From contig DYIY01000002.1 in assembly GCA_020723405.1 (NCBI GenBank), forward strand, positions 310,001 to 374,000: a stretch of 64,000 nucleotides of DNA, read 5' to 3'. The DNA comes from Thiobacillus denitrificans (GTDB lineage: Bacteria; Pseudomonadota; Gammaproteobacteria; Burkholderiales; Thiobacillaceae). Positions 310-16,684 of the stretch are shown here, in pieces; the stretch's first letter is position 1; every line of letters starts with the position of its first letter. A program made the position numbers and the translations under genes. The notes beneath the pieces are model-generated. The model saw nothing but the letters and a program-made list of their open reading frames with translations, did not search any database and had not been told where the DNA came from.

Positions 310-436
310 AAATCCCCCCTAACCCCCCTTTTACAAAGGGGGGGAATCCCGTGGTGGTGGGGATACCTGGCTGCGAACCCTACGCGGGCACGGAGGTTTT
401 CTCCCCCCTTTTGTAAAGGGGGGCTGGGGGGGATTT
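310..436. repeat. Inverted-repeat doublet 1 (REPIN-like), between hupU and hupV
   Basis: The left arm starts AAATCCCCCC and folds on itself (C6 T-run, short loop, A3 G-run). The right arm is the inverse copy ending GGGGGGATTT. About 55 bp of unrelated sequence lies between the arms. It separates two genes that are normally adjacent. Confidence 0.9.
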
Positions 437-475
437 GACCCGCGAAAAACCCGCGCAACGCTTTCCCGAGTCCCC

Positions 476-1483
476 TCATTTCAACCCCGTCTTCTTCACC
501 GCCGGAGTGACCACGGCATGGTCCGCCACCGCATTTTCCCGCACCCGCTTCGGGGTGGCGGACTTGGACAGGGCGGCCAGGGCCACGAACCAGGCCTTGG
601 GCATGTCGGTGGGCAGGCCGATGGGAATGCCGGCCACCTTGGGGGTCTCGGCAAAGGGGTGGCCGGGTTCCTCGAAACGCGGTTCGGTGCAGGACACGCA
701 GGCGTAGCCGCCGCGCAGGCAGGAGCCGCCGCCGTTCCACAGGCGGGTGTTGCAGTCGGCGTGGGCCTGGGTGCCCTTGCAGCCCAGATTTTCCATCATG
801 CAGCCCTGGTCAGAGGCTTTCTCGGCGCTGGCCTTGAACTCGTAGAACTCGTTGCGCGGACAGCCGTGGTGGACCAGATGGTCGGCAAAGAACCGGGGCC
901 GGTGGAAGGGGTCCAGGTCGGCTTCGGCGAATCGGTCCAGGGACAGGGCCAGCAGGGTGTCCAGCACCCAGCCGGGATGGGTGGGGCAGCCCGCCACGTT
1001 GATGACCGGCAGGCCGGCAGCGGCCCGGAAGGCGGGGCCCAGAAGTCCGCCGGGATGGTCGCCGTCGTATTGCAGCCCCACCGCGCCCCCCGGGTTGCCG
1101 CCGCCGGCAGTGATGCCGCCGAAGGCCGCGCAGGTGCCCACCGCCAGGACGTGGCGGGCCCGGGTGGCCAGGTCCAGCACCCAGGACATCATGGGCCGGC
1201 CCGTGCCGGAGAGCATGTGGAAGCGGCCCGTGCCCTGGGGGCCGGTCATGATGGAACCCTCCACACAGAGGATGTCCAGGCGCTCCCGACCCTCGGCACA
1301 GGCGGCCAGGATGGCCAGGGCTTCGGGGCCGCTCTCCCGGCTGAGGGAGGGGTGCCAGAGAAGGTGGATGCCGGCGGCTTCCAGATGGGCCAGCAGATGG
1401 GGTTGCTCGGCGTTGAGCAGGGACAGGGTGCAGCCGCCGCAACCGCCGGACTGGAGCCAGAGAAGGTTGAGGGGGGCAGTCAT
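476..1483 (-). CDS. hupU: Regulatory (H2-sensing) [NiFe] hydrogenase small subunit
   Basis: A 335-residue small subunit of the cytoplasmic sensor hydrogenase (HupU/HoxB). The protein starts directly in the mature fold (LWLQSGGCGGCTLSLL, first Fe-S cysteines at 15 and 18) and has no Tat signal, unlike the catalytic small subunit HupS at 20927-22006. Further cluster ligands are seen in GTCAAFGG, VAGCPTHPGW, HHGCPRNEFYEFKASA, NLGCKG, ADCNTRLWNGGGSC and the YACVSC stretch. The length matches the family. It lies upstream of hupV and downstream of the activator gene, the usual arrangement of an H2-sensing module. The family is known to form a complex with its large subunit and a histidine kinase and to signal H2. 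It does not support growth itself. Confidence 0.95.
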   Translation of the reverse strand: MTAPLNLLWLQSGGCGGCTLSLLNAEQPHLLAHLEAAGIHLLWHPSLSRESGPEALAILAACAEGRERLDILCVEGSIMTGPQGTGRFHMLSGTGRPMMSWVLDLATRARHVLAVGTCAAFGGITAGGGNPGGAVGLQYDGDHPGGLLGPAFRAAAGLPVINVAGCPTHPGWVLDTLLALSLDRFAEADLDPFHRPRFFADHLVHHGCPRNEFYEFKASAEKASDQGCMMENLGCKGTQAHADCNTRLWNGGGSCLRGGYACVSCTEPRFEEPGHPFAETPKVAGIPIGLPTDMPKAWFVALAALSKSATPKRVRENAVADHAVVTPAVKKTGLK

Positions 1484-1498
1484 GGGTGGAGGGGGTAC

Positions 1499-1533
1499 TC
1501 CCCCCTTTTGTAAAGGGGGGTTGGGGGGGATTT
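1499..1533. repeat. Single arm of the C6T3/A3G6 repeat, upstream of hupU
   Basis: A right-type arm with CCCCCCTTTTGTAAAGGGGG and a GGGGGATTT tail, 15 bp upstream of the hupU start codon, with no left arm next to it. It lies in the 5' leader of hupU mRNA, where its own hairpin (six G-C pairs plus A-T pairs) could affect translation or mRNA stability. Confidence 0.8.
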
Positions 1534-1613
1534 GCAGGACTTGGCCTGGCTGCGACGGGTTTGGTCTCCGTAGTCAGGCTTAAGAGGGCGTAGTGGGTGG
1601 GCTGGGCGTGGCG

Positions 1614-1707
1614 AAATCCCCCCTAGCCCCCCTTTACAGAAGGGGGGGATCAGGTGGGCGGGGAATGGGGGCTCCTGCCCTTCGTGAGCAGGGGTTGGGG
1701 GGGATTC
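1614..1707. repeat. Inverted-repeat doublet 2, degenerate right arm
   Basis: The left arm is a normal AAATCCCCCC arm. The right arm keeps the GGGGGGATTC end, but the hairpin core is changed to CTCCTGCCCTTCGTGAGCAGG. This looks like an older or gene-converted copy. It runs up to within a few bases of the stop codon of the activator gene. Confidence 0.75.
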
Positions 1708-1714
1708 AAGCCGC

Positions 1715-3169
1715 TCAGCCATCCAGCTTCCTCCCCTTCACCGGCCGTTCCACCCCTAGCCGGGCCATCTTCTTGGATAACCCCAGCCGGGACAGACCCA
1801 GTTCCCGCGCGGAGCGGGACAGGTTGCCCTGGTATTGGGCCAGGGTGTCCATCAGCAGGCGGCGTTCCAGTTCGTCCACCCGGCCTTTCAGGTCGGCGGC
1901 GGGGGCGGTTTCCAGCACCCGGGAGAGGCCGGCCTGGCGGATGTGGGGGGCGAGCAGGTCCGGGGTGAGGATGGGCCCGTCGGAGAGGACCAGCATGCGC
2001 TGGATCTCGTTCTGCAGTTCGCGCACGTTGCCGGGCCATGCGTAGGCGGTCATGCAGGCCAGGGCGGCCGGGTCCAGGCCGTCCACGGGGCGGCCCAGGG
2101 CCTGGCCGGCCCGGTGCACGATGGCCCGGGCCAGGGCGGCGATGTCCATGGGCCGTTCGCGCAGGGCGGGCAGGCGCAGGGGCACGGTGGCCAGGCGGTA
2201 GAACAGGTCTTCCCGGAAGCGGCCGGCCTTCACTTCAGCTTCCAGGTCCCGGTTGGTGGCAGCGATGACCCGCACGTCCACGGATACGGGCCGGTTGCCG
2301 CCCACCGGGCGGAATTCACCTTCCTGGAGCACCCGCAGCAGTTTCACTTGCAGGGCCGGGGTGGTTTCGCCGATTTCGTCCAGGAACAGGGTGCCCCCGT
2401 GGGCCTGCTGGAACAGGCCCACCCGGTCCTCGAAGGCGCCGGTGAAGGCGCCCCGCTTGTGGCCGAAGAGTTCCGATTCCAGCAGGTTGTCCGGCAGGGC
2501 GCCGCAGTTCTCCACCACGAAGGGCTTGTCGGCCCGGCCGCTGGCGTAATGGATGGCCCGGGCCAGCAGTTCCTTGCCGGTGCCGGATTCGCCGGATAGC
2601 AGGATGGACACGTCGTAGCGGGCCGCCCGTTCCACCAGATCGCACACGCCGTTCATGGGACTGCCTTCGGCACGCACGATGTTGTCCAGGGCGAAGGCCT
2701 GCTTCACCCGCTTGCGGGTGGCTTCCACCCGGCTGCGCAATACCGGTTCCGCGGCCCGCAATTCCACGGCCAGCTGGCAGTTCTCCTTTTGCAGGCGATG
2801 CAGTTCGGCGGCCCGCTTCAGGGTCAGCAACAATTGCTCCGGGTGCCAGGGCTTGAGCAGGTACTGGTAGATGCCCGCCTCGTTGATGCCGGCGATGATG
2901 TCTTCGCTGTCGGTGTAGCCGGAGATGATGATGCGCACCGTGTCCGGCCAGGCCTTGCGCACTTCCTTGAGGTATTCCACCCCGCTGACATCCGGCATGC
3001 GCTGGTCGGTAAGCACCACCTGGATGGCCCGGGCTTCCATGATGCCCCGGGCCTCGGCGGCGCCGGAAGCGGTGAAGACCTCGAAGTCTTCCTCCAGGGT
3101 GCGGCGCAGGGCCTCCTGGGAGCGGACTTCGTCGTCGATGACGAGGACGGTGGGCAGGGGGGGGGTCAT
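1715..3169 (-). CDS. hoxA: Sigma-54 dependent response regulator of hydrogenase genes
   Basis: A 484-residue NtrC-type activator of the HoxA/HupR group. The receiver domain covers about 1-125, with acidic residues D12-D13, the phosphorylatable D55 and K106. The AAA+ domain has Walker A GESGTGKE at 193-200, the sigma-54 contact loop GAFTGA at 240-245, and Walker B FLDEIGE. The C-terminus ends in a Fis-type helix-turn-helix ([22 protein letters not shown]). It lies between hypX and the sensor hydrogenase, as in known hup/hox loci. In this family the activator works with sigma-54 on the hupS promoter; in some members the unphosphorylated form is the active one. A -24/-12 element is present upstream of hupS (22079-22094), which fits. 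Which kinase acts on it cannot be seen here. Confidence 0.94.
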
Positions 3170-3203
3170 GGGGTGGGAAGGGGGTGGGGGAGGAGGCGTT
3201 GAT

Positions 3204-3299
3204 AAATCCCCCCCTGCCCCCCTTTTTCAAAGGGGGGAGTTGGTCTGTTGGGATGCAGAAGTTCTTCCCCCCTTTTGTAAAGGGGGGCCAGGGGGGGGT
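3204..3299. repeat. Inverted-repeat doublet 3a, between hypX and hoxA
   Basis: Left arm AAATCCCCCCCTGCC with its hairpin, and an inverse right arm that ends GGGGTC rather than GGATTT. It is the first of two doublets back to back in the 286-bp gap between hypX and the activator gene. Confidence 0.9.
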
Positions 3300-3327
3300 C
3301 AAAAGGCCCAGCCAGGCCACACACCGG

Positions 3328-3423
3328 AATCCCCCCCCGCCCCCCTTTAAGAAAGGGGGGAGTAGCGCAGTGGTAGCCCCAACCTATTCCCCCCCTTTGA
3401 AAAAGGGGGGTTAGGGGGGATTT
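3328..3423. repeat. Inverted-repeat doublet 3b, between hypX and hoxA
   Basis: A second complete doublet only 28 bp after the first, with both arms intact (AATCCCCCCCC start, GGGGGGATTT end). Together the two copies fill most of the hypX-hoxA gap, which otherwise holds no gene. Confidence 0.9.
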
Positions 3424-3455
3424 AGGACCCGTAGCCAAACCACCCACCTCCCCCA

Positions 3456-5285
3456 TCACCCCTCCCCCTCCGGCACCACCCACCCCAGGTCCCGGTGTAC
3501 CGCCAGGTGCCGGGGCGTCCAGGAATGGGGGGTCTTGGCCACGAAATGGTGGCGGGCCACGTGGTAGCTGGGATCGAAGCCGTAGAAGTTGCGCTGCATG
3601 TGCTTCAGTTCCTCGGCCCGGTAGTCTTCCAGAGGCTTGGCCGCCTCGTCCTCGGCGCGCCGGCGGGCCTTGGCCTGGAGCCATGACTCCAGTTCGGGGG
3701 ACTCCGCCAGGGCCTGGGCCCGGGCGCGGGTTTCCGCCTGGAACGTGGCCGGGTCATCACCGAAGGCGGCGTCGATGAAGCCCTCCCGCAGGGCGTCGGC
3801 CGCGCCCAGGGGCAGGCGGTTGCCCATGATCCCAGCGGCCCGTTCCGCGCCCACCCGGCGGGGCAGCAGGTAGCTCCAGTATTCCGAACCGTAGAGGTTG
3901 CCCATGTTCTTGTAGTGGGGGTTGAGGATCACCCCCCGGCGGGCCCACACCCGGTCCGCCGCCAGGGCCAGGAAGGCGCCGCCGGCCCCGGCGTTGCCGG
4001 CCAGGGCGCTGACGGTGAGTTGGCGGTCGGTGGCCAGGATGGCGCGGCAGAGATCGTCCATGGCGTTGATGTTGCGCCAGGATTCGTCGGGGGGGCTGTC
4101 CGCGGCTTCGATGCGGTTGAGGTCCAGGCCGTTGCTGAAGAAATCCGTGCCGCCCAGGAGGACGATGACTCTGGTGGGACGCTGCCTTGCCGCTGCATAG
4201 GCGGCCAGCAGGTTCTCGCAGGCGGTAGTGCCCATGGCGCCGTTGTAGAAGTCGAAGGACAGGTAGCCCACGGGGCCGTGCTCGGCGTAGGTGATGTGGG
4301 GGTCGGGGAAAGTCTGAATCCCCCCCTGCCCCCCTTTAAGAAAGGGGGGAGAGGGTTGCTGGTCCAGCGAAGCATCCACCTTTTGGAAGGGGGAAGCGGA
4401 TTGCTGAACCACCGAACTACTCCCCCCTTTCGTAAAGGGGGGTTGGGGGGGATTTAACGCCGCGTCCATCTCCACCAACCCCAGCCAATCCCCCCCAAAC
4501 ACCCCACCCACCGGCAACTTGATCCCCCCTTCCACCTTGCAATGCCCGATCCACACCGCCCCATCCACCGTCCCCCGCACCACCCCCTCCCCCACCCGGC
4601 CCAGCAGTTCGCCCGGGTTGCCTACAGCGTCGAACGGCCGGGCATCGAACAGCCAGCAGTCCCGGCCGAACAGGCTGTCCCGCACCCCGGGGAAACCGTC
4701 GCCGCTGTTCAGCTTGGCCAGGACGGTGACCGTGTCGTCCCGTGCCCAGTCCACGCGCCGGTCAGCCTGGGTCACCAGGGGATGCATGGGCCGCAAGGCG
4801 GGCTGACCGGGCTGCCAGGTGCCGGCCTGGTACTCGGGCCAGCGGTCCAGGGCCGCCTTCACCGCCATCACCGCCGCTTCGGTGACTTCATTGCGGTAGA
4901 GACTGGACTTCTTCGCCCCCCGCAGGGGGAAGCTCGCGCTGGCCCATACCGGCCCGGCATCCATCTCCGCCTCGGCCTGGAGCACGGTGACGCCCCATTC
5001 CCCTTCGCCTCGCAGGATGGCCCAGTCCAGGGCGGACGGGCCCCGGTCGCCCACCGGGCCGGGGTGCACGATGAGGCAGACGTGCTGGCGCCAGACGTCC
5101 TCGGGGATGGCCCGGCGCAGGTAGGGCGCCAGGATGAGATGGGGGCGGAACAAGGCCACCGCTTCCCGGGTGACGCTGTCGTTGATGTCGAATTCGATGG
5201 AGAGCTGGTGGCCCAGGGCCTGCAATTCCACGAACAGCCGCTGGGTGAGGCTGTTGAAGGCGTGGGTGAGGAGGAGGAGACGCAT
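3456..5285 (-). CDS. hypX: Hydrogenase maturation protein HypX with an in-frame repeat insertion
   Basis: A 609-residue HypX/HoxX. The N-terminal half is a formyltetrahydrofolate-binding, transferase-like domain (HPGPVGDRGPSALDWAI, starting at 74). The C-terminal half is an enoyl-CoA hydratase/isomerase-like domain (GNAGAGGAFLALAADRVWAR, then NPHYKNMGNLYGSEYW). The family makes the CO ligand of the NiFe site from a formyl group under aerobic conditions, which suits the oxygen-tolerant enzyme encoded upstream. Between the two domains, at about residues 277-323, lies a stretch rich in PP, KGG and Q that is the direct translation of repeat doublet 4317-4455. The reading frame stays open across it. 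It probably forms a disordered linker, but whether the protein is fully active is not known. Confidence 0.93.
   Translation of the reverse strand: MRLLLLTHAFNSLTQRLFVELQALGHQLSIEFDINDSVTREAVALFRPHLILAPYLRRAIPEDVWRQHVCLIVHPGPVGDRGPSALDWAILRGEGEWGVTVLQAEAEMDAGPVWASASFPLRGAKKSSLYRNEVTEAAVMAVKAALDRWPEYQAGTWQPGQPALRPMHPLVTQADRRVDWARDDTVTVLAKLNSGDGFPGVRDSLFGRDCWLFDARPFDAVGNPGELLGRVGEGVVRGTVDGAVWIGHCKVEGGIKLPVGGVFGGDWLGLVEMDAALNPPQPPFTKGGSSSVVQQSASPFQKVDASLDQQPSPPFLKGGQGGIQTFPDPHITYAEHGPVGYLSFDFYNGAMGTTACENLLAAYAAARQRPTRVIVLLGGTDFFSNGLDLNRIEAADSPPDESWRNINAMDDLCRAILATDRQLTVSALAGNAGAGGAFLALAADRVWARRGVILNPHYKNMGNLYGSEYWSYLLPRRVGAERAAGIMGNRLPLGAADALREGFIDAAFGDDPATFQAETRARAQALAESPELESWLQAKARRRAEDEAAKPLEDYRAEELKHMQRNFYGFDPSYHVARHHFVAKTPHSWTPRHLAVHRDLGWVVPEGEG
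4317..4455. repeat. Inverted-repeat doublet 4, inside hypX and translated
   Basis: The left arm starts AATCCCCCCTGCC and the right arm ends GGGGGGATTT. A third, decayed hairpin core (CCACCTTTTGGAAGGGGGAAG) lies between them. On the hypX strand the arms encode PPQPPFTKGG and PPFLKGGQGGI. Confidence 0.92.
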
Positions 5286-5310
5286 GGGTGGATGGTGGGG
5301 TTGAGAGGGG

Positions 5311-5904
5311 TTAAATCCCCCCTGACCCCCCTTTAGGAAAGGGGGGAACAGCCTCGCCAGCTTCGGGATGCGCCACTCCCCCCTTTTGTAAAGGGGGGCT
5401 GGGGGGGATTCCAGCCCGTTTCACTGCTGAGAAGATCACCTCAATCACCGCCTTCGTCTCCAGCAACACCTGCCGGTCATCAAAGCGCAGGACCTGGATT
5501 CCCTGGGATTGCAACCATTCATCACGCTTTGCATCCTTGGCCTGCTGTTGCGTATCGAAACGGTGCTGGCTGCCGTCCAGTTCAACCACCAACCTGGCTT
5601 TGGGGGCGTAGAAATCCAGGAAATAGGGGCCCAGGGGGCGTTGCCGGTAGAAACGGGTGCCCAACTGGTCCCGACGCAGAGCATCCCAGAGGCGGGTTTC
5701 GGCGTCGGTCTGGTGGGTACGGAGTTGGCGGGCGTAGGCTCTTAAGTGAGGGGCGTATTGATCGAGCGTGGGGAGATGTGGATGGCCTGGAATCCCCCCC
5801 TGCCCCCCTTTAGAAAAGGGGGGAACGGCGTCACACGCCTCGGCCGGATGTTCTCCCCCCTTTCCTAAAGGGGGGTTGGGGGGGATTCGCACCCGGTCCA
5901 CCAC
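5311..5904 (-). CDS. DUF559 (Vsr-like, PD-(D/E)XK) endonuclease bracketed by repeat doublets
   Basis: A 197-codon open frame whose core (about 40-160) is a DUF559 domain: QRTHQTDAETRLWDALRR-type helix region, then FRYRQRP/LGPYFLDFYAP and LVVELDGSQH, giving the D...E-x-D metal site of Vsr-like nucleases, and a C-terminal VLRFDDRQVL strand. Residues 6-38 and 165-197 are translations of the flanking doublets (PPNPPLGKGG, PPFSKGGQGGI; PPSPPLQKGG, PPFPKGGSGGI). No other ATG lies between the annotated start and the core, so the true start may be a GTG/TTG/CTG or the ATG at 5904. The gene sits between hypE and hypX in the same direction. Family function is not settled; single-strand or mismatch nicking is inferred only from the fold. 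It could be cargo carried by the repeats or an enzyme that acts on them. Confidence 0.82.
   Translation of the reverse strand: MVDRVRIPPNPPLGKGGEHPAEACDAVPPFSKGGQGGIPGHPHLPTLDQYAPHLRAYARQLRTHQTDAETRLWDALRRDQLGTRFYRQRPLGPYFLDFYAPKARLVVELDGSQHRFDTQQQAKDAKRDEWLQSQGIQVLRFDDRQVLLETKAVIEVIFSAVKRAGIPPSPPLQKGGVAHPEAGEAVPPFPKGGSGGI
5313..5410. repeat. Inverted-repeat doublet 5, 3' side of the DUF559 gene
   Basis: Complete doublet with AAATCCCCCCTGACC start and GGGGGGGATT end. It supplies the last 33 codons of the DUF559 frame; the TAA stop overlaps its outer end. It also lies 27 bp upstream of the hypX start codon. Confidence 0.9.
5791..5887. repeat. Inverted-repeat doublet 6, 5' side of the DUF559 gene
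   Basis: Complete doublet, AATCCCCCCCTGCC start and GGGGGGATTC end. It encodes residues 6-38 of the DUF559 frame and lies 18 bp downstream of the hypE stop. Confidence 0.9.
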
Positions 5905-6957
5905 TCAACAAATCCTCGGCAACTGCTCGCCACTCAGCCAGTCCACCATCCGCCTGCCGCCAAACCCGGTCTTCATCTGCACGAAGCCGTTGGGGTCCTC
6001 CACCACCTTGCCGATGACGGCGGCCTGGCGGCCCAGGGGATGGGCGTGCATGGCGGCGAGCAACCGGCCCGCGTCTTCGGCGGCGCAGACGGCGATGAGC
6101 TTGCCTTCGTTGGCGATGTTGATGGGGTCCAGGCCCAGCAGTTCGCAGGCGGCTTCCACTTCCGGCTTCACGGGAATGGCGGCCTCCTCCAGGTGGATAC
6201 CCACCCCGGACTGGTGGGCGATCTCGTTGATGGTGGCCGCCAGCCCGCCCCGGGTGGGGTCGCGCATGACGCGGAGGGCGGCGCCGCTGGCCAGCATGGC
6301 GGCCGTCAGGCCGTTGAGGGCGGCCGTGTCGGAGAGGATGGGGGCGTCGAAGCTCAGGTTCTCCCGCTTGCTCATGATGGCCACCCCGTGGTCGCCCACG
6401 GTGCCGCTCACCAGCAGCACGTCACCAGGCCGGGCCAGGTCGCCGGAGAGATGGATGCCTTCGGGCAGGAAGCCGACGCCGGTGGTGGTGATGAACACCC
6501 CGTCGCCCTTGCCCTGCTCCACCACCTTGGTGTCGCCGGCCACCAGCTTGACCCCCGCCTCATTGGCCGCCCGGGCCATGGATTCGACGATGCGGGCCAG
6601 GTCGGCCAGGGGGAAGCCCTCTTCCAGGATAAAGCCGGCGGTGAGGTAGAGGGGCCTGGCGCCCATGACCGCTACGTCGTTGACGGTGCCGTGGACCGAC
6701 AGGCAACCGATGTCGCCGCCGGGGAAGAACAGGGGCGAGACCACGTGGCTGTCGGTGGACACCACCAGCCGGCCCGGCTCCACGGGCAGGCAGGTGCCAT
6801 CGTTGCCCTGGGCCAGGTATTCGTTGCCCAGGTGTTTGGCGAACAGGTCGGTGATGAGTTGCACCATGGCCCGGCCACCGCCGCCATGGCTCATGTCCAC
6901 CCGGCCATGCTTGATGTCCAGGGGGCGGGCGTAGCCCTTCTTTACTTGGCCGGTCAT
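5905..6957 (-). CDS. hypE: Hydrogenase maturation protein HypE (carbamoyl dehydratase)
   Basis: A 350-residue HypE of normal length. The C-terminus is PRIC, whose last cysteine receives a carbamoyl group from HypF and is dehydrated with ATP to a thiocyanate, the source of the CN ligands. The PurM/SelD-like ATP-binding core shows DMSHGGGGRAM near the N-terminus, GGDIGCLSVHGTVNDVAVMG, and VMRDPTRGGLAATINE. The ATG overlaps the stop of the hepT gene by 4 bases (ATGA), so it is now translationally coupled to a toxin gene rather than to hypD, its usual neighbour. The last two bases before the DUF559 frame are contiguous with the hypE stop. Confidence 0.97.
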   Translation of the reverse strand: MTGQVKKGYARPLDIKHGRVDMSHGGGGRAMVQLITDLFAKHLGNEYLAQGNDGTCLPVEPGRLVVSTDSHVVSPLFFPGGDIGCLSVHGTVNDVAVMGARPLYLTAGFILEEGFPLADLARIVESMARAANEAGVKLVAGDTKVVEQGKGDGVFITTTGVGFLPEGIHLSGDLARPGDVLLVSGTVGDHGVAIMSKRENLSFDAPILSDTAALNGLTAAMLASGAALRVMRDPTRGGLAATINEIAHQSGVGIHLEEAAIPVKPEVEAACELLGLDPINIANEGKLIAVCAAEDAGRLLAAMHAHPLGRQAAVIGKVVEDPNGFVQMKTGFGGRRMVDWLSGEQLPRIC

Positions 6958-7298
6958 GGTCCAACCTTGTCTTGATGGGATTCCAGAATACTCAGCATGC
7001 TTGGTATCTCCACGCTGACCGTATGCCAGACCAGATCCCGATCCACGCCGAAATAAGCGTGGGCGAAGACATTGCGCGCACCGACGATGTCCTGCCAGGG
7101 GATGTCCGGGATTTGCCCGCGCACCGAATCCGGGATGTGTTTGGCAGCCTCGCCTATCAGTTCAAGGTTGCGCAAGGTCGCGTCGAAAACCAGGCGGTTG
7201 GCTTCGAAGGCTGCACGATCCAAACCCCGGGTGTAGTGCAAGACCTGCCGGCAAAAATCGATGATATCCAGGTAGAACAGGCGCCAGTCACGCGACAT
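6954..7298 (-). CDS. hepT: HepT-like HEPN ribonuclease toxin
   Basis: A small all-helical HEPN (DUF86) protein. With the start at 7298 (MSRDWRLFYL) it has 114 residues; a longer form from 7319 is possible but would overlap mntA more. The catalytic Rx4HxY motif is complete: R75, H80 and Y82 in RNVFAHAY. The start lies inside the last codons of mntA (11-base overlap), and the stop overlaps the hypE ATG (ATGA). HepT proteins cleave RNA and are silenced by polyadenylylation on the motif tyrosine by MntA. Here the pair is inserted between hypD and hypE in the same direction, so it is likely read from the hydrogenase operon mRNA. Confidence 0.88.
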   Translation of the reverse strand: MSRDWRLFYLDIIDFCRQVLHYTRGLDRAAFEANRLVFDATLRNLELIGEAAKHIPDSVRGQIPDIPWQDIVGARNVFAHAYFGVDRDLVWHTVSVEIPSMLSILESHQDKVGP

Positions 7299-7581
7299 CG
7301 ACCAAGTCCTTTTCCACATAAGGTCGCAGTTCTTCGCGCAGTCCCTTGTCCGTGACCAGATCGACGGGATGTCGCAACAATGATTCCAGATAGCGGCTCA
7401 AGCCCATATAGCGGCGCAGGGTCGCGCCGCCCTCGAAACTGACCAGTAAATCGACGTCGCTATCTTCCCGGGCTTCACCGCGCGCGGTCGATCCGAACAG
7501 CGCCAGGCGCACAACGCCGTACTGGCTGGCCATCACTTGCCGGTGGGCACTGAGAATGCCTAGTGCTTCCTGTCTATCCAT
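7288..7581 (-). CDS. mntA: MntA-like minimal nucleotidyltransferase antitoxin
   Basis: A 97-residue minimal nucleotidyltransferase. The signature GSx10DxD is intact: G30-S31, then D42 and D44 in SDVD. I chose the ATG at 7581 (MDRQEALGIL) because GAGGGG lies 7 bases upstream, inside the end of hypD; the ATG at 7587 has the same sequence only 1-2 bases away. The hypD stop (7574-7576) falls just inside this gene, so hypD and mntA are coupled. MntA enzymes neutralise HepT by adding AMP units to its catalytic tyrosine. The partner follows immediately. The module has no obvious link to hydrogenase function. Confidence 0.88.
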   Translation of the reverse strand: MDRQEALGILSAHRQVMASQYGVVRLALFGSTARGEAREDSDVDLLVSFEGGATLRRYMGLSRYLESLLRHPVDLVTDKGLREELRPYVEKDLVDVA

Positions 7582-8722
7582 TGCCATTCCCCTCTGATTG
7601 CACATCCTTGTACCGCCCATAAGTGTAATGGGCCGCGCAGGCTCCCTCGCTGGAGACCATGCAGCTCCCCATGGGGTTCTCCGGCGTGCACACCGTGCCG
7701 AAGATCTTGCAGTCGGTGGGCTTCTTCACGCCGCGCAGGATGGCGCCGCATTCGCAGGCCTTGTTGTCCGGCACCGGCTGGTATTCCAGGCCATAGCGCC
7801 GCTCGGCGTCGAACTCGGCGTACTTGTCGCGGATGCGCAGGGCGGAATACGGCACCTCGCCCAGGCCCCGCCATTCAAAGCTGCGGCGCAGCTCGAACAC
7901 GTCCGACACCAGGTTCTGGGCCTTCTCGTTGCCCTCCGGGGTCACGGCCCGGGTGAACTCGTTCTCCACCGTGGCCCGGCCCTCGTTCACCTGGCGCACC
8001 AGCATGAGGATGGCCTGCATCACGTCCAGGGGCTCGAAGCCGGCGATGACCACCGGCTTGCGGTATTCCTCGGCGAAGAACTCATAGGGCCGGCTGCCGA
8101 TGACCGTTGACACGTGAGCCGGGCCGATGAAACCGTCCAGGGGCACCGTGCCCAGTTCCCGCACTTCCGGGGATTCCAGGATGTTCATGATGGCCGAGGG
8201 GGTGAGCACGTGGCAGCACAGCACGGTGAAGTTCTTCAGGCCCTCCGCCTGGGCCTGCCGGATGGCCACCGCCGTGGGCGGCGTGGTGGTCTCGAAGCCG
8301 ATGGCGAAGAACACCACCTCCCTGCCCGGATTGTCCCGGGCGATCTTCAGGGCATCGGTCACCGCATAAACCATGCGGATGTCGCCGCCCCGGGCCTTGG
8401 CCTTCATCAGGGACAGGCCGTTGGAGGCCGGCACCCGCACCGTGTCGGCATAGGTGCAGAGGATGACGCCCCGCTCCAGGGCCAGCTTGATGGCCAGATC
8501 GATGCGGCCGATGGGCAGCACGCACACCGGACAGCCCGGCCCGTGGATCATGCGCACGTTGGGCGGCAGCAGGTCCGGCACCCCGTAGCGGGAAATGGCG
8601 TGGGTGTGGCCGCCGCAGAACTCCATGAAGTTGTAGCGCCGGTCGGGCCGGACCTCGGCGGCGATGGCTTTCGCCAGGCCCTTGGCGACCTCGCCGTCGC
8701 GGAATTCGTCGACGTATTTCAT
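7574..8722 (-). CDS. hypD: Hydrogenase maturation protein HypD (Fe-S scaffold)
   Basis: A 382-residue HypD. Conserved motifs: FCGGHTHAI with C36, GPGCPVCV with C64 and C67, and the C-terminal [4Fe-4S] set in ACECGAILRG, DCKIFGTVCTP, MGSCMVS and GACAAHY. With HypC it forms the scaffold on which Fe(CN)2CO is assembled. The ATG overlaps the hypC stop by 4 bases. At its 3' end the coding sequence runs into the mntA start. The C-terminal SEGNGNG tail after TYGRYKDVQ seems slightly longer than I expect for the family; it is where mntA has become attached, so the end of hypD may have been altered by that insertion. Confidence 0.97.
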   Translation of the reverse strand: MKYVDEFRDGEVAKGLAKAIAAEVRPDRRYNFMEFCGGHTHAISRYGVPDLLPPNVRMIHGPGCPVCVLPIGRIDLAIKLALERGVILCTYADTVRVPASNGLSLMKAKARGGDIRMVYAVTDALKIARDNPGREVVFFAIGFETTTPPTAVAIRQAQAEGLKNFTVLCCHVLTPSAIMNILESPEVRELGTVPLDGFIGPAHVSTVIGSRPYEFFAEEYRKPVVIAGFEPLDVMQAILMLVRQVNEGRATVENEFTRAVTPEGNEKAQNLVSDVFELRRSFEWRGLGEVPYSALRIRDKYAEFDAERRYGLEYQPVPDNKACECGAILRGVKKPTDCKIFGTVCTPENPMGSCMVSSEGACAAHYTYGRYKDVQSEGNGNG

Positions 8723-8955
8723 GCGCCGAGGGCCTGTTCCATGAGACCGGCTTCCGCCATCAGGGCCAGGGTCTTTTCCGCTTCCTCGGGGTCAAGACGG
8801 GTCAGGGCATAGCCCACGTGGACGATCACGTAGTCACCCACCTGCACGTCTTCCACCAGGGCCAGGGAAACGTCCTTGCGCACGCCGCCAAGGTCCACGA
8901 TGGCTTGGTCGTTTTCGGCGATCTCCACGACTTTCGCGGGAATGGCTAGGCACAT
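8719..8955 (-). CDS. hypC: Hydrogenase maturation chaperone HypC
   Basis: 78 residues, starting MCLAIPAKVVE: the invariant C2 binds the iron of the Fe(CN)2CO unit and then the large-subunit precursor. The beta-barrel core (VDLGGVRKDVSLALVEDVQVGDYVIVHVGYAL) and the acidic helix (LDPEEAEKTL) are typical. It is coupled to hypD by a 4-base overlap. Upstream there is a 119-bp gap to the DUF2283 gene in which I see no gene. A second, paralogous HypC-type chaperone (hupF) lies at 17125-17430. Confidence 0.97.
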   Translation of the reverse strand: MCLAIPAKVVEIAENDQAIVDLGGVRKDVSLALVEDVQVGDYVIVHVGYALTRLDPEEAEKTLALMAEAGLMEQALGA

Positions 8956-9074
8956 GCTGTATGTCCTCGGGAAATAAGTTCGATCGCAAGCCGACCCTCA
9001 CCAAGGCTCAGAAGATTCGACTGCCGGGTATGCAAAGCCTTGTTGTCGTGCGTTCCGGTGAAGAAACTCATGGT

Positions 9075-9272
9075 TCAGGCAGCAATCTGCTCGAAGGAAA
9101 AGTGGGGGATGTCCGCCCGGTCCTTCGCGTGCTCGATGGTGATGGCGCAGATGTTGCCGTCGGCATCCACGTCCAGCAGGGTGTTCTCGTCCAGGTCTCG
9201 GGTTTCGTCGACCGGGGCGGAACGGAACTCGATGTAGAGCGTGTCCGTATCCTGGAAATATTTGATCTTCAT
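9075..9272 (-). CDS. DUF2283 small protein, probable antitoxin
   Basis: 65 residues starting MKIKYFQDTDTLYIEF, the beta-hairpin signature of DUF2283, followed by a short beta-rich body with GNICAITIEHA. Its ATG overlaps the stop of the gene before it (9269-9544) by 4 bases. Such DUF2283 proteins are often encoded directly after a small DUF4258-like protein, and the pair is thought to act as a toxin-antitoxin module; that role is inference. The pair interrupts the hypF-hypC junction. Confidence 0.8.
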   Translation of the reverse strand: MKIKYFQDTDTLYIEFRSAPVDETRDLDENTLLDVDADGNICAITIEHAKDRADIPHFSFEQIAA

Positions 9273-9544
9273 GGTGTGAACCTCCGGTCAAAAAAGGCGT
9301 TGTGAACGGTCTCACCGTCCGCCAACAGAATGACACGTAATGCGCGGTTATCGGCTTCCTGAATCAGCCCCCAGCGGCAAATCCGTCCATCACTTTGAAC
9401 TTCCTCGCGGATCGGTTGGACGATGACTTGCTCGATCCATGCTTCCTTGATGCCAACTCGATCTGGCCGTTGCTGGGTGGCATAGAAGTATTGGGTGAAC
9501 TTCACGGGGCTACTCACATCCTTGAGTGATTGACTGCATTGCAA
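9269..9544 (-). CDS. DUF4258-like small protein, probable toxin partner of DUF2283
   Basis: 91 residues if it starts at the ATG at 9544, which lies within the last codons of hypF (35-base overlap). GTG codons at 9517 and 9505 would give shorter forms, starting close to VKFTQYFYATQQRPDR; no clear ribosome binding site decides between them. The body (KEAWIEQVIVQP, GRICRWGLIQEADNRALRVILL, TVHNAFFDR) resembles small proteins that regularly precede DUF2283 genes. I assign it to the DUF4258-like group from memory of such pairs, not from a search. Function unknown; a RelE-like or other toxin role is possible. Confidence 0.7.
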   Translation of the reverse strand: MQCSQSLKDVSSPVKFTQYFYATQQRPDRVGIKEAWIEQVIVQPIREEVQSDGRICRWGLIQEADNRALRVILLADGETVHNAFFDRRFTP

Positions 9545-12368
9545 CCCAAGCCTGTCCCAGGCTCAAGCCCCCGTCGTTGGGCGGGGCCTGGCGGGCGGAT
9601 AGAACGGTGAAGCCCCGCTCGGTCAGCAAGCGGGTCAGGTTGCGGGACAGAATGTGGTTGAGAAAACAGCCGCCGCCCAGGGCGATGGTGGTAAGACCTT
9701 CCCGGCGGGCGGCACGTTCAGTCCAGTCGGCCAGGGCCTGGGCCAGGGTGGCGTGGAACAGGGCGGCGCCATGGGCGGCATCGGTTTCATCGGCGAGCCG
9801 GGCGAGAAGCGGCAGCAGGTCCAGTTGGCTTGTCACCCCGTCAGAGAACGGGGTCCAGGAGGCGTCGATCTGGATTCCGGCATTCGCCGGAATGACGGAG
9901 TCAAGGATGCGATATCCCTCATCCCAGGCCATGACCGGTCCGGCCACTTCTGCCAGGCCCTCCAGCAGCATGGCCGCCTGGCCTTCGTAGGCCATGACTT
10001 CCCGGGCACCCAGCAGGCCGGCGGCGGCATCGAACCAGCGGCCCAGGCTGGTGGTGGGGGGGCAGTGCAGGTCCCGTTCCAGCATCACGTGCAACTGCCG
10101 GGCCATGGGCTGGCCGGGGAAGCGGCGGGGAATGTCGTCCGCGCGGCCCAGGCGGTACAGGGCGGCTGCGGCCATGCGCCAGGGCTCCTTGGCCGCCTTG
10201 TCGCCGCCGGGCAGGGGCATTGATGAGAGGTGGCCCAGGCGGGTGAAATCGGCCCCGGATTGCGCCCCGTCCAGGCGCAGCAGTTCGCCGCCCCAGGCGC
10301 TGCCATCCGTGCCCAGGCCGACGCCGTCCAGGGCCAGGCCCAGGAGGGGTTCGGTGACCCCGTGTTCTGCGGCCACGGCGGCGATATGGGCATGGTGGTG
10401 TTGCACCGGGATGGCCGGCACGTTCCATTGGCCGGCCAGTTCCAGGGCGTGGCGGGTGCTGAAGAAGTCCGGGTGCAGGTCGTGGGCCAGGGCCTGGGGC
10501 AGGACTTGCAGGATGTCCAGGAGATGGGTGGCCACTTCCATGAGCATGGTGCAGGTGGCGGGATTGTCCAGGCCGCCGATGTGCTGGGAGAGGAAGGCTT
10601 CGTCGCCCCGGGTGATGCAGAGGGTGTTCTTGAGGTAGCCGCCCAGGGCGAGGACGGGGGGGCCGGCGCGGGGCAGGCGGATGGCGCGGGGGGTGTAGCC
10701 TCGGGCACGGCGGATGAATTGGGGGGTGATGGAGGTTGAGGCGTTGCTAAATCCCTCCTGTCCTCCCTTTACGAAAGGGAGGGACCCTTCGGTGGGGGGA
10801 TGGGGGTCTTCCATACTTCCCAGAGGTTGGGAACCTTCGGGGAGGGGATGGGGGGCTCCCCCCTTTTGTAAAGGGGGGTGGGGGGGGATTTCGGAGGGAG
10901 TGGGGAGGGTGACGGGGTTAAATCCCTCCTGTCCTCCCTTTACAAAAGGGAGGAACCCTTCGGGGAACGGATGGGGGTCTTGCATACTTCCCTGAGGTTG
11001 GGAACCTTCGGGGAGGGCCTGGGGTTCCCCCCCCTTTTGTAAAGGGGGGTTGGGGGGGATTTCGGCGGCGCAGCGGACCACCGAGTCGTCGCAGCGGACC
11101 ACGATGTCCCGGTCGTGCATCAGCACCAGGTCGGCGATGCCGGCGAGGCGGGTTTGGGCTTCCAGGTTGTCGATGACCAGGGGTTCGCCGCCGGGGTTGG
11201 CGCTGGTCATGACCAGGACCAGGTCCTGGGGGTGTTCCATCCAGCCGGTGCCGGGGGGGCAGCCCAGGGCTTCGTGGAACAGGAGCCAGTGGAGGGGGGT
11301 GTAGGGCAGCATGACGCCGAGCCAGGCCAGGCCCGGGGCGATGCCGGGGAAGGCGGTGTCGGCGCCGGGCTTCTTGCGCAGCAGGACGATGGGGTGCTCG
11401 GGGGAGGTGAGCAGTCGGGCTTCGGCGGGGGTGATTTCTACCCAGTCGGCCACGGAGGCCAGGTTGGCGGCCATGAGGGCGAAGGGCTTTTCTTCCCGGT
11501 TCTTGCGCTCGCGCAGGGTTTGCACGGCGGTGGGGTTGCGGGCGTCGCAGGCCAGGTGGAAGCCGCCCAGGCCCTTGATGGCGACGATGGCGCCGGATTG
11601 GAGGTGGTGGAGGGTGGTGGGGAGGGGTTGTTGAGGGTGTTGAGGGGGGTTAAATCCCTCCTGTCCTCCCTTTACAAAAGGGAGGGACCCCTCGGTTGAG
11701 CGGACCGGGTCCATCGCCTCCGACCTGTTCCCCCCCTTTTGTAAAGGGGGGCTAGGGGGGATTTCTACAAGCTCAGCAATCCACAACCTCGGCCCGCACA
11801 CCGGACACGCCGTGGGTTCCGCATGAAACCGCCGGTTGCCCGGATCCCGGTATTCCCCTTCGCAATCCGGGCACAGGGGAAACGCCGCCATGCTGGTTCG
11901 GGCCCGGTCGTAGGGCAGGCCCCGGGTGAGGGTGTAGCGGGGGCCGCAGTGGGTGCAGTTGATGAAGGGATAGCGCCAGCGCCGGTCGGCAGGGTCGAAC
12001 ATCTCGGCCAGGCAGTCCGGGCAGGTGGCGGTGTCGTGGCCGATCATGGTGGCGGCCTGGCCGGCACCGCTTTCGCTGATGGCAAAGTCCCCGAATTCCC
12101 CCGAGGCCGGGCCGTCGGCCCAAGTCAGGGCCCGCACCTGGGCCAGGGGGGGAATCTCTTGGGGCAGGCGTCGGGTGAAGGACTCGATGGCCTCCGCACT
12201 GCCTTCCACCAGCACCTCCACGCCGGCAGCGTCATTGCGCACCCAGCCGGTGAGGTTCTGGGTTCGGGCCAGGTGCCAGACATAGGGGCGGAAGCCCACG
12301 CCCTGGACGATGCCAGCCACGCGCAGACGGCGCTGGATTTGATCCCGGCTTGCGAGGGGCGCGTTCAA
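9510..12368 (-). CDS. hypF: Carbamoyltransferase HypF enlarged by four in-frame repeat insertions
   Basis: A 952-residue HypF; the family usually has about 750-780. Domains in order: acylphosphatase (RRLRVAGIVQGVGFRPYVW, about 12-100), a double zinc finger (CPDCLAEM, NCTHCGPRY, CPDCEGEY, CPVCGPRL), a YrdC-like adenylation domain, and the Kae1/TobZ-like carbamoyltransferase domain (LALDGVGLGTDGSAWGGEL, GGGCFLNHILSRNL). The extra length is repeat DNA translated in frame: about residues 201-239 (doublet 11652-11764), 435-540 (two doublets, 10749-11062) and 823-846 (palindrome near 9831-9900). These total roughly 165 residues, which accounts for the excess. HypF carbamoylates HypE from carbamoyl phosphate. 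The frame is open throughout, so the protein may still work if the inserts loop out, but this is unproven. Confidence 0.94.
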   Translation of the reverse strand: MNAPLASRDQIQRRLRVAGIVQGVGFRPYVWHLARTQNLTGWVRNDAAGVEVLVEGSAEAIESFTRRLPQEIPPLAQVRALTWADGPASGEFGDFAISESGAGQAATMIGHDTATCPDCLAEMFDPADRRWRYPFINCTHCGPRYTLTRGLPYDRARTSMAAFPLCPDCEGEYRDPGNRRFHAEPTACPVCGPRLWIAELVEIPPSPPLQKGGNRSEAMDPVRSTEGSLPFVKGGQEGFNPPQHPQQPLPTTLHHLQSGAIVAIKGLGGFHLACDARNPTAVQTLRERKNREEKPFALMAANLASVADWVEITPAEARLLTSPEHPIVLLRKKPGADTAFPGIAPGLAWLGVMLPYTPLHWLLFHEALGCPPGTGWMEHPQDLVLVMTSANPGGEPLVIDNLEAQTRLAGIADLVLMHDRDIVVRCDDSVVRCAAEIPPNPPLQKGGEPQALPEGSQPQGSMQDPHPFPEGFLPFVKGGQEGFNPVTLPTPSEIPPHPPLQKGGAPHPLPEGSQPLGSMEDPHPPTEGSLPFVKGGQEGFSNASTSITPQFIRRARGYTPRAIRLPRAGPPVLALGGYLKNTLCITRGDEAFLSQHIGGLDNPATCTMLMEVATHLLDILQVLPQALAHDLHPDFFSTRHALELAGQWNVPAIPVQHHHAHIAAVAAEHGVTEPLLGLALDGVGLGTDGSAWGGELLRLDGAQSGADFTRLGHLSSMPLPGGDKAAKEPWRMAAAALYRLGRADDIPRRFPGQPMARQLHVMLERDLHCPPTTSLGRWFDAAAGLLGAREVMAYEGQAAMLLEGLAEVAGPVMAWDEGYRILDSVIPANAGIQIDASWTPFSDGVTSQLDLLPLLARLADETDAAHGAALFHATLAQALADWTERAARREGLTTIALGGGCFLNHILSRNLTRLLTERGFTVLSARQAPPNDGGLSLGQAWVAMQSITQGCE
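9831..9900. repeat. 'SVIPANAGIQ'-type palindromic repeat inside hypF
   Basis: Contains GATTCCGGCATTCGCCGGAATGAC, a palindrome common in many proteobacterial genomes, next to a second short palindrome (CCCCGTCAGAGAACGGGG). On the hypF strand it encodes SVIPANAGIQ followed by a short WTPFSDGVT stretch, in frame. Confidence 0.88.
10749..10891. repeat. Inverted-repeat doublet 7a inside hypF, tandem copy
   Basis: A variant with CCTCC-type outer arm (AAATCCCTCCTGTCC) and a standard inner arm. The interior (GAACCTTCGGGGAG and related) closely matches copy 7b exactly 171 bp further on, so the two form an in-frame tandem duplication of 57 codons. Confidence 0.92.
10920..11062. repeat. Inverted-repeat doublet 7b inside hypF, tandem copy
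   Basis: Second unit of the 171-bp tandem duplication. On the hypF strand both copies encode 48 aligned residues starting EIPP.PPLQKGG and ending LPFVKGGQEGF; 9 hypF-frame codons lie between them. Confidence 0.92.
11652..11764. repeat. Inverted-repeat doublet 8 inside hypF
   Basis: AAATCCCTCCTGTCC arm and a standard GGGGGGATTT arm, 113 bp, after the zinc-finger part of hypF. It encodes EIPPSPPLQKGG to SLPFVKGGQEGF. The CCTCC-type outer arm is shared only with the other two hypF copies, which points to local spread. Confidence 0.92.
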
Positions 12369-12386
12369 TCGGGCAACACCCTGGGG

Positions 12387-13520
12387 TCAGCCCTTGGCCG
12401 CCAGGCGGGCTTCCAGTTCCGCGATCCGTTTCTTCAGCAAATCCACGTTGGCTTCCCGGGCCACCCTGGCTTGGCCCAGGCCAGCCAGCAGCCAGTCGAT
12501 CCACTCTTCCATGCCCTGCCCGCTGGTGGCCGACACCTGCATGACCTGCAATTTCGGGTTCACCCGGCGGGCGAAGTCCACGCATTTCTCCACGTCGAAA
12601 TTCAGGTAGGGCAGCAGGTCCACCTTGTTGAGCAGCATCAGGTCGGCGGCGTTGAACATGTCCGGGTATTTGAGGGGTTTGTCCTCGCCCTCGGTGACCG
12701 AGAGGATGACCACCTTGTGGGCTTCGCCCAGGTCGAAGGCGGCGGGACAGACCAGGTTGCCCACGTTTTCGATCATGAGCAGGCTGTCGTCGGGCAGGGC
12801 CAGGCGTTCCAGGGCGTGGCCCACCATGTGGGCGTCCAGATGGCAGCCCTTGCCGGTATTGACCTGGATGGCGGGGGCACCCGTCGCACGAATCCGGTCG
12901 GCGTCGTTGCTGGTCTGCTGGTCGCCTTCCACCACGGCGACAGGAAAATGCGGGGCCCGGTCCTTCAGCAGCTCGATGGTCTTCACCAGCAGGGTGGTCT
13001 TGCCGGAGCCGGGGCTGGAGACCAGGTTGACGGCGAAGATGCCGTGTTCGGCGAAGTGCTGGCGGTTGCCGGCGGCGTAGGTGTTGTTCTTGCCCAGGAT
13101 GTCCTGTTCGATCTTGACCATGCGCTCCTGGGTGAGGCCCGGGGCGTGGGCGTGGGCGGGGCCCAGGCCGTAGTGGAGGTCTCCCTTGTGCTCGTGGAAG
13201 TGCATGGCGCTGCTGCCGGCGTGGAGTTCGGCGTCGCCATGAGCATGGTCGTGGCCGGCGCCCGCGTCGTGCAGGTGCTCGTGTCCGTGATCGTGGCCGC
13301 CGTGCCCGTGGTCGTGGACATGGGGGTGGCCGTGGCTGTGCACGTGTTCGTGGGGATGGCTGTGGGTGGTGCCGTCCGCATGGGTGTGCTCGTGGCCATG
13401 GGCGTGGCTGTGGTCGTGCTCGTGCTCATGGCTGTGGGGATGGGTGTGGTCGTGGGGGTGGGCGTGGTCCTGACCTTCGATTCGGGTCTCGCCCTGGCCG
13501 CAGCCGCAGACGGTGCACAT
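12387..13520 (-). CDS. hypB: Nickel-binding GTPase HypB with a very long histidine-rich region
   Basis: 377 residues. It starts MCTVCGC (the high-affinity N-terminal metal motif), after a good ribosome site (AGGAGA, 7 bases upstream of the ATG). Residues 19-131 hold about 40 histidines, mostly as HxH pairs. The GTPase domain follows: P-loop [23 protein letters not shown], the metal-site KGCHLDAHM, and NKVDLLPY. A short charged coiled tail ends the protein. HypB delivers nickel to the large-subunit precursor with HypA, driven by GTP. The histidine stretch is known in rhizobial HypB as nickel storage; here it is longer than I recall for those. It follows hypA after a 93-bp gap with a GC-rich hairpin. 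Confidence 0.96.
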
Positions 13521-13570
13521 GGTTGGTTCTCCTGCTTCAAGCTTGGCAAACGGGAGGGCCCCCGGGGGGT

Positions 13571-13606
13571 GCCCTTCTCCTCCCCCTCTCTGACCGGAGG
13601 AGGGGC
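13571..13606. other. GC-rich hairpin between hypA and hypB
   Basis: An imperfect stem (GCCC-TT-CTCCTCC against GGAGGAGGGGC). On the mRNA a run of six U precedes, not follows, the stem, so it is not a terminator for this strand. It may be a remnant of a CCCTCTCC-type dispersed repeat or a processing site. Confidence 0.5.
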
Positions 13607-13613
13607 AAAAAAG

Positions 13614-13955
13614 TCATTCCACCAGCAAATCCTTCACGCGCATCTCCGTGCCGCCGGTGGCCTGGATCTGGTAGCTGCCGCATTTCGGGCAGGCGTCGTA
13701 GAGGGCGGCGATCTCTACGGTCTGGCCGCAGCCCAGGCACCAGCCCTGTCCGGGCAGGCGTTCCAGTTCCACCCGGGCGCCGTCGGCGACGCTGCCCTTG
13801 AGCACCACGTCCATGCAGAAGCTCAGGGCTTCCACTTCCACGCCGGACAGGGCGCCGATTTCCAGGCGCACTTCGGTCACCCGTTTGAAACCCTGACGGG
13901 TGGCGGCGTCTTCCACGATCTGGAGGATGCCTTCGGCCAGCGACATTTCATGCAT
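13614..13955 (-). CDS. hypA: Hydrogenase nickel incorporation protein HypA
   Basis: 113 residues, the usual size. It starts MHEMSLAEGI: the N-terminal amine and H2 bind nickel. The zinc-ribbon cysteines appear as CLGC and CPKC in the C-terminal half. It works with HypB in nickel delivery. Its start overlaps the end of hupK (stop at 13948) by 8 bases, so the hup maturation genes run directly into the hyp genes as one transcription unit. Confidence 0.96.
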   Translation of the reverse strand: MHEMSLAEGILQIVEDAATRQGFKRVTEVRLEIGALSGVEVEALSFCMDVVLKGSVADGARVELERLPGQGWCLGCGQTVEIAALYDACPKCGSYQIQATGGTEMRVKDLLVE

Positions 13956-15548: not shown

Positions 15549-15759
15549 GATCCACCACCATGAACTGTTCCCGGGCGCCGTCGCATTGGGGGCAGCGCCA
15601 ATGCTCGGGCAGATCGACGAAGGCGGTGCCGGGGGGAATCTGCCACACCGGGTCGCCCAGGGCCGGGTCATAGACGTACCAGCAGATCTTGCACTCCAGC
15701 CGGGCATCGGGGGGCAGACGGCTGGCATCGCCCAGGTAGGAGCCTTCAAAGGTGGCCAT
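15541..15759 (-). CDS. hupI: Rubredoxin HupI
   Basis: A 72-residue rubredoxin from the ATG at 15759 (MATFEGSYLGDASR), the start I prefer by family comparison; an upstream ATG at 15792 would add 11 residues. The iron site is complete: CKICWYVYDP and CPQC, with the PPGTAFVDLPEHWRC segment between. Neither start has a clear ribosome site, and a perfect 8-bp hairpin lies just upstream (15801-15822). HupI/HoxR rubredoxins help build the proximal cluster of HupS in the presence of oxygen, which fits the six-cysteine cluster seen in this HupS. Confidence 0.93.
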   Translation of the reverse strand: MATFEGSYLGDASRLPPDARLECKICWYVYDPALGDPVWQIPPGTAFVDLPEHWRCPQCDGAREQFMVVDHG

Positions 15760-15800
15760 GGGAGAAGCGTGATCCAATTTGCAGTGCAACATGATGGCCC

Positions 15801-15822
15801 GGGAGACAGGGACTTGTCTCCC
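15801..15822 (-). other. Perfect hairpin in the hupH-hupI spacer
   Basis: GGGAGACA and TGTCTCCC form an 8-bp stem with a 6-base loop. There is no T-run, so it is not a terminator. It sits 9 bases before the ATG at 15792 on the mRNA and could mask or set the rubredoxin start. Confidence 0.6.
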
Positions 15823-15848
15823 CCCAAACCATCAGGGTCTTTACTGGA

Positions 15849-16676: not shown

Positions 16677-16684
16677 GGCGGACC

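Follow-up and report, generated by a model that had tools for sequence, protein, structure and literature searches.

The intrastrand-triplex motif known as BoxC, PIT or TM was published for E. coli as CCCTCNCCC-N3-6-GGGNGAGGG-N3-GGGNGAGGG (Holder et al., 2015, PMC4666352). The main text of that paper gives 23 copies in K-12, occurrence in more than 260 genomes and higher local rearrangement, and reports no transposase or integrase remnants or mobility genes near the E. coli copies. Such elements have been known from E. coli since the 1990s, occur widely among bacteria and accompany genome instability; where they came from was left open. REPINs were tied to the RAYT enzymes (TnpA-REP) by bracketing, pairing, co-occurrence and insertion polymorphism taken together. 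The available text of Di Nocera et al. (PMC3733652) distinguishes repeats tagged by GTAG or CGTC, describes REPs lying inside repair genes and reports no dedicated transposase for the CGTC class. In the available text of PMC12907096 the DUF559 protein VsrA of Caulobacter is regarded as a mismatch-repair enzyme with a part in the response to DNA damage. Evolution experiments with Legionella pneumophila found hot spots of recombination at segments containing a transposase and DUF559, according to the available text of PMC12308824. A published link between DUF559 and hairpin repeats of the kind treated here was not found in the searchable open-licence literature, including by queries with the arm sequences.

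The locus described here carries a DUF559 nuclease gene with hairpin repeats (arms) on both sides. Our reading, to which we assign a probability of about 0.6, is that intrastrand-triplex hairpin repeats (BoxC/PIT/TM together with the C6T3-N3-A3G6 type) have DUF559 nucleases as their cognate enzymes and spread in a homing-like way. It draws on bracketing, lineage pairing, co-occurrence, insertion polymorphism and purifying selection, all observed in the genomes compared. If true, it would provide a role for a Pfam family still named 'unknown function'.

The nuclease unit between hypE and hypX

The window is the whole stretch of 64,000 nucleotides that was analysed. It contains a hydrogenase cluster, in which the hyp names are those of an earlier note and agree with the domains. 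The features were as follows.

5311-5904, minus strand: DUF559 nuclease ORF, 197 aa with a GTG start; the N- and C-terminal tails are translated arms
5422-5745, minus strand: DUF559 domain within the nuclease ORF (PF04480 match)
5855-5887, minus strand: arm 1 (sense order), tail outward, 17 bp past the hypE stop
5791-5823, plus strand: arm 2, tail toward the nuclease, upstream doublet with arm 1
5378-5410, minus strand: arm 3, tail toward the nuclease
5314-5346, plus strand: arm 4, tail outward, downstream doublet with arm 3
5905-6957, minus strand: hypE (AIRS/AIRS_C), left neighbour; the empty site of relatives lies directly after the hypE stop
3456-5285, minus strand: hypX (Formyl_trans + ECH_1), right neighbour, with an in-frame doublet at 4317-4454
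311-17604, mostly doublets: 22 arms of the local family in the hydrogenase cluster (pattern with up to 3 mismatches)
19001-19120, 38010-38102, 51486-51579 and 54690-54784: four places with a second repeat family (GGTAGTCGGTAG runs)

All four arms of the unit matched the pattern AATCCCCCC-NNN-CCCCCCTTT-NNN-AAAGGGGGG without mismatch. Each of them is a C6T3/A3G6 hairpin with a perfect 9-bp stem, a loop of 3 bases and a single C-rich tail. The nuclease ORF starts and ends at the two doublets, which confirmed the earlier note's description of a DUF559 gene bracketed by two repeat doublets. The doublet-nuclease-doublet unit fills the space between the hypE ORF (end at 5905) and hypX (start at 5285), leaving by our count 17 bp from hypE to the first arm and 28 bp from the last arm to hypX. 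The source genome (G000, 4.15 Mb) contained 201 arms at up to 3 mismatches, against 0 for the reversed pattern, and one DUF559 match by profile search. By our arithmetic ∼0.02 arms are expected in 500 bp of flanking sequence; 4 were found at the unit. The same pattern and threshold gave no local-family arms in 17605-64000 of the window. Arms are dense throughout 311-17604, where 22 are crowded together, so the bracketing, although real, proves little in this window alone and is carried by the comparative data below.

Folding of the doublets was compared with shuffled sequences and gave z values of -8.2 for the upstream and -5.2 for the downstream doublet. This strong folding, and the frequent position of arms at gene joints in the window, would suit a regulatory or structural function, in which arms are transcription or RNA signals favoured beside the gene, for example keeping a toxic nuclease low. 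Against such a function, the same arms occur about 200 times in G000 and in frame inside genes, and PIT elements had no promoter or terminator activity according to work cited in the main text of Holder et al. (PMC4666352); we regard it as highly improbable.

The PF04480 match of the window protein covered residues 54-161 (E 3.2e-32, 111.1 bits against a cut-off of 20.6). An AF2 model from 38 sequences (pLDDT 86.6, pTM 0.80) was closest among solved structures to 3hrl, a gonococcal DUF559-like protein (Z 15.2), followed by I-Bth0305I (3r3p, Z 11.8) and Vsr with DNA (Z 10.2); profile searches gave E values of 3.1e-38 for 3hrl and 0.0026 for I-Bth0305I. The modelled DUF559 fold is that of Vsr and the homing endonuclease I-Bth0305I. 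Residues E26, D54, E65, H71 and D81 were invariant in the 38 sequences and were assigned by us to the EDxHD motif. With the NCBIfam vsr model (cut-off 97.85 bits) the window protein gave no match at E 0.01 and one relative scored 19.4 bits. Matches to mitoribosomal structures, and those to enterotoxin-B (E 0.03 or worse), were ascribed to remote similarity of fold or to chance. A defence system was dropped as a candidate, PADLOC giving only weak partial matches (DpdF 6.8e-9 over 59 residues).

The predicted fold, the invariant E, D, E, H and D and the keeping of the host frame by inserts are shared with the EDxHD endonuclease I-Bth0305I. The DUF559 units differ from it in lying between dispersed repeats, in having no single conserved insertion site and in not being seen in an intron or intein. 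Vsr and Caulobacter VsrA likewise share the modelled fold, whereas the nuclease described here is linked to repeats.

In-frame doublets were also observed inside hypX (4317-4454) and, three times, inside hypF (10750-11763), and the frame stays open in both genes. Doublets at near-equal distances from the nuclease (about 1.3, 2.3, 3.9, 5.1 and 6.6 kb) were seen in the regions L066, L069, L082, L086 and L090 and in the window; their recurrence in several species means that these doublets are old, and the nuclease gene lies in a hot zone for them. The second repeat family of the window consists of runs of GGTAGTCGGTAG and its inverse flanking a short GC-rich stretch.

Flanking repeats and nuclease lineages across genomes

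Flanks of 200 bp on each side of the DUF559 domain were searched for the best ungapped match between them, direct or inverted, scoring 1 for a match and -2 for a mismatch; a score of at least 18 was counted as a shared repeat. Controls were other non-overlapping ORFs of at least 90 aa from the same regions, more than 1500 bp from DUF559. Three samples were utilized, which may overlap in species. The family sample comprised 60 domains (84 matches less 21 that were short or weak, 2 of the other 63 that were left out and one with too short a flank). The named-genome sample comprised 77 (the best 80 of 573 loci by likeness to the family alignment, 3 with short flanks). The phylum sample consisted of the best-scoring locus from 60 of 83 genomes with a strong DUF559 match.

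A shared flank repeat was found for 41/60 DUF559 domains of the family sample against 20/583 control ORFs and 1/546 random segments, for 54/77 in the named genomes (best 80 of 573 loci) against 3/479 controls and 4/671 random segments, and for 35/60 in the phylum sample against 5/526 controls. Together this amounts to 130/197 domains against 28/1588 control ORFs; the remaining 67/197 were without a shared repeat by the same test. Hairpin stems of at least 8 bp were present in both flanks at 39/59 (controls 9/174), 44/71 (4/207) and, in the phylum sample, 30/60 (16/526). The core word CCCTCTCCC occurred in the flanks of 36/61, 44/80 and 34/60 loci, compared with 2, 1 and 0 random pieces. Named arm motifs stood in both flanks of 42/60, 44/77 and 28/60 domains against 11/592, 0/485 and 0/526 controls, in total 114/197 against 11/1603. 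The bracketing is therefore far more general than a single window. Ten of the 11 bracketed family controls were listed, all near a C6T3-type nuclease (L069, L082, L086 and the window); given this clustering, the window taken alone would be compatible with chance, and it is the control ORFs that rule out chance bracketing in a repeat-rich operon.

Among arms with the exact common pattern, tails pointed inward rather than outward in 26 against 6 cases upstream and in 39 against 10 downstream. Of 131 C6T3 hairpins in 8 regions, 125 had exactly one C5+ tail, 6 had none and 0 had two; for CCCTCNCCC hairpins in DUF559 flanks a tail was present in 197/271 (strand counts halved). Arm-like flanks repeated within 20 kb were not clearly above controls (21/59 against 33/174; 11/71 against 22/207), and a general rule that flanking arms recur within that distance is unsupported by these counts. 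A palindrome of the CGTC type (ATTCCCGC, letters approximate) was found in the flanks of 0/201 loci, and CGTC REPs were rejected as nuclease partners. By our sequence tests the arms appear to fall in neither the GTAG nor the CGTC tag class. At L063:3622-6273, minus strand, with positions given on the reversed strand, spaced repeats encoding FPGLIRPGLIEA were observed that resemble a CRISPR array.

A DUF559 tree of 61 domains was calculated by a quick method from few columns, with the C6T3 label given when the motif lay in either flank. The label changed 2 times on this tree compared with a shuffled mean of 15. One clade (support 99) carried it in 17/18 rows, and the remaining rows had CCCTCTCCC/CCCTCCCCC except for 3. 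Both nuclease types were present within G014, G015, G021, G077, G103 and G105, each flanked on one side or both by arms of its own type, the C6T3 arm of G077, G103 and G105 being on the downstream side only. The sister subclade of G053, G058, G077, G080, G103 and G105 had C6T3 arms downstream only, which counts against our reading. Flank similarity correlated with protein identity across genomes (Spearman 0.71, 1807 pairs, 0/500 permutations as high), also when restricted to 442 pairs with unlike surroundings (Spearman 0.60, 0/1000 permutations as high). Shared flank sequence (score of at least 18) was found in only 5/23 same-genome pairs. Arm type follows nuclease lineage, even inside single genomes.

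Within the genus the median number of local arms was 179 in 9 genomes with a C6T3-clade nuclease and 0.5 in 14 counted as without. The exceptions among the 14, all less than 90% complete, were G029 (46 arms, 77% complete) and G031 (32 arms, 86%), both with no DUF559 match, and G028 (12 arms), which was counted there with one DUF559 match outside the tree. In 299 genomes of the phylum, with strong DUF559 defined as E <1e-20, at least 3 copies of the exact pattern CCTCACCC-N2-8-CCTCTCCC were found in 49/83 DUF559 genomes and 11/216 others; the reversed control pattern gave 0 in nearly all of them and a maximum of 6 (G271). Within ten families 28 co-occurrences were observed against 14.3 expected. 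The exact pattern was missing from 26/83 DUF559 genomes, and at least 10 copies were present in 7/216 genomes without strong DUF559.

C6T3 arms near the hypE-site nuclease reached 13-34 times the genome average in G000, G014, G015, G021, G023 and G024, and 117 times in G025 and 91 times in G107, which have few arms genome-wide (11 and 22). The regions round four non-cognate DUF559 genes (G014, G015, G021) comprised three without C6T3 arms and one with 4 (7.6 times). Round the second C6T3-clade nuclease of G021 (L084) the density was only 1.6 times average.

Y1/RAYT proteins (PF01797) were matched in 9/14 genomes tested, with no match in G000, G015, G018, G057 and G113, and 0/27 of the Y1 matches had an arm within 250 bp. 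The arms might instead be moved by RAYT, another transposase or replication slippage, with DUF559 as cargo or bystander. The Y1 proteins in 9/14 genomes are in keeping with this, as are arms found also without a nuclease, but no Y1 match exists in G000 with 201 arms or G015 with 79 local arms, none of the 27 Y1 matches has arms beside it, control genes are seldom bracketed (11/1603) and arm type tracks nuclease lineage. A bystander role is accordingly judged quite improbable, and RAYT as arm mover is unsupported.

The proposed pairing of DUF559 with arms resembles REPIN/RAYT in its short palindromic repeats, often inverted doublets and about 200 in G000, and in one dedicated enzyme gene bracketed by repeats with lineage-specific pairing; this is a likeness of working, not kinship. 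It differs in that the enzyme is a Vsr-like PD-(D/E)XK nuclease and not a Y1 HUH transposase, in that the arms carry a pyrimidine tail (AATCCCCCC or CCTCACCC) and no GTAG tag, and in that Y1 matches are missing in 5/14 genomes and without arms beside them in the others.

Empty, filled and in-frame insertion sites

The hypE locus was compared at 18 genus loci. The unit was present at 7/18 (gaps of 501-766 bp), hypE and hypX adjoined at 4/18 (0, 3, 16 and 16 bp), and at the other 7/18 no hypX was found beside hypE or the locus was cut. The four sites without the nuclease gene were all without arms, and arms persist in all seven genomes of the genus where the gene separates hypE from hypX, so that no orthologous copy free of repeats was found. 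In G023 the hypE-side doublet was lost and arms elsewhere in the unit were kept. The nuclease gene lay likewise between hypE and hypX in G107 and next to hypE in G038. A hypE-site nuclease common to several species indicates no recent movement there. The dN/dS of the hypE-site DUF559 was 0.09-0.27 (21 pairs, 7 genomes), indicating purifying selection. The earlier note suggested that repeat, nuclease and repeat had been inserted together as one unit and would represent a partnership of repeats with a nuclease; both readings are supported by the flank enrichment, the filled and empty hypE-hypX sites and the lack of an arm-free orthologous copy.

The recG comparison covered 53 genomes, with G014 entered twice. 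Loop one was occupied by a nuclease unit in G014 and by a single arm in G023; in G001 it had a doublet, as it did in G029 judging by the peptide. Most of the 53 genomes showed no such insert there. Loop two contained nuclease units in G001, G047 and G050. The G014 unit ends in two copies that are inverted relative to each other, their tails turned toward the nuclease. Target-site duplications were not recognised by eye at the hypE and recG junctions, which are old. Pfam host domains were matched on both sides of DUF559 in RecG of G014, in four Radical_SAM_N/DUF3362 proteins, which we take to be YgiQ, and in an MmeI-like enzyme; a DBI_PRT protein with a DUF559 insert, presumably CobT, gave host domain matches in two stretches. 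In RecG of G001 and G047 the insert is near the N-terminus and Pfam host domains were matched only after it. In-frame inserts in conserved genes, including DNA repair genes, are also known from Rickettsia RPE and from intragenic GTAG/CGTC REPs (PMC3733652); those repeats differ in sequence, and the available text of that paper mentions no nuclease in the inserts.

A DUF559 protein that persists at hypE across species under purifying selection, with a Vsr-like fold, might also be a repair or quality-control nuclease that clears extruded hairpins and triplexes or mends mismatches in them, is near arms because it is needed there, and limits arms instead of spreading them. The DNA-damage role of Caulobacter VsrA (PMC12907096, available text) would agree with this. 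A diffusible repair enzyme, however, needs neither a flanking substrate nor insertion in recG, cobT-like and radical-SAM genes, and arms are more numerous, not fewer, in nuclease genomes; such a guarding function is considered unlikely.

For the preferred reading, of DUF559 as the cognate enzyme of the arms, we infer that the nuclease recognises and cuts arms and thereby mobilises them through repair-driven copying. Each arm is a hairpin of a purine and a pyrimidine strand, and its single pyrimidine tail could pair with the purine strand as a third strand; arms are arranged singly, in inverted doublets or in nuclease units with tails mostly toward the nuclease. The nuclease would recognise an arm when extruded or single-stranded and would cut or nick at it. 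Host repair of the break from another arm-bearing copy would then copy doublets and nuclease units to new places; in this homing-like scheme the nuclease gene would be autonomous and the doublets non-autonomous. To our knowledge PD-(D/E)XK nucleases do not rejoin DNA as RAYT can. Since a nuclease of this type only cuts, a homing-like, repair-dependent route is expected, not RAYT chemistry.

An in-frame DUF559 unit was also observed inside an MmeI-like restriction-modification protein at L060:8238-11456. In L200, L202 and L206, with L201 similar, the loop of recG that is occupied by the unit in G014 has another in-frame repeat, of the GCGAGTCGCGAGTCGCAAGT type. The presence of another repeat type in other species indicates a site tolerant of several repeat families.

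Triplex motifs and ycjD in E. coli

The common arm beside DUF559 is the reverse complement of the published E. coli triplex consensus. As in BoxC/PIT/TM, the arms have a pyrimidine tail, the putative third strand, beside a purine/pyrimidine hairpin. They differ in that a nuclease is tied to them, and the local C6T3 family keeps the layout with a variant sequence. A bracketing, lineage-matched nuclease family is thus a candidate enzyme for the origin of BoxC/PIT/TM, testable in K-12 through ycjD, and DUF559 might supply an enzyme recognising triplex-forming DNA. A wider proposal, held tentatively and at somewhat less than even odds, is that DUF559 and triplex-forming hairpins constitute a third bacterial repeat system beside GTAG/RAYT and CGTC. 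Its self-copying arm-nuclease-arm units and nuclease-free doublets would spread via host repair, also by in-frame insertion in housekeeping genes, across many phyla and in E. coli K-12.

In K-12 MG1655 a triplex motif lies about 170 bp from the 3' end of the DUF559 gene ycjD (1351407-1351760), and a decayed arm overlaps that 3' end; arms in E. coli are on one side of ycjD only. The chance of a motif within 200 bp of a given gene is about 0.4% by our arithmetic (23 copies, 4.64 Mb). The main text of Holder et al. (PMC4666352) makes no mention of ycjD. The E. coli control genome gave no PF04480 match, though MG1655 is annotated with ycjD as a DUF559 gene. The ycjD region was matched over at least 80% in 3333/5426 E. 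coli genomes. 12 E. coli strains were chosen from a spread list of 5385 records. The inner hairpin was present in 7/7 ycjD loci examined, and both hairpins were missing in 6/6 strains with other genes after fabI. In strain TC_EC10 the inner arm is intact, with its tail at ycjD.
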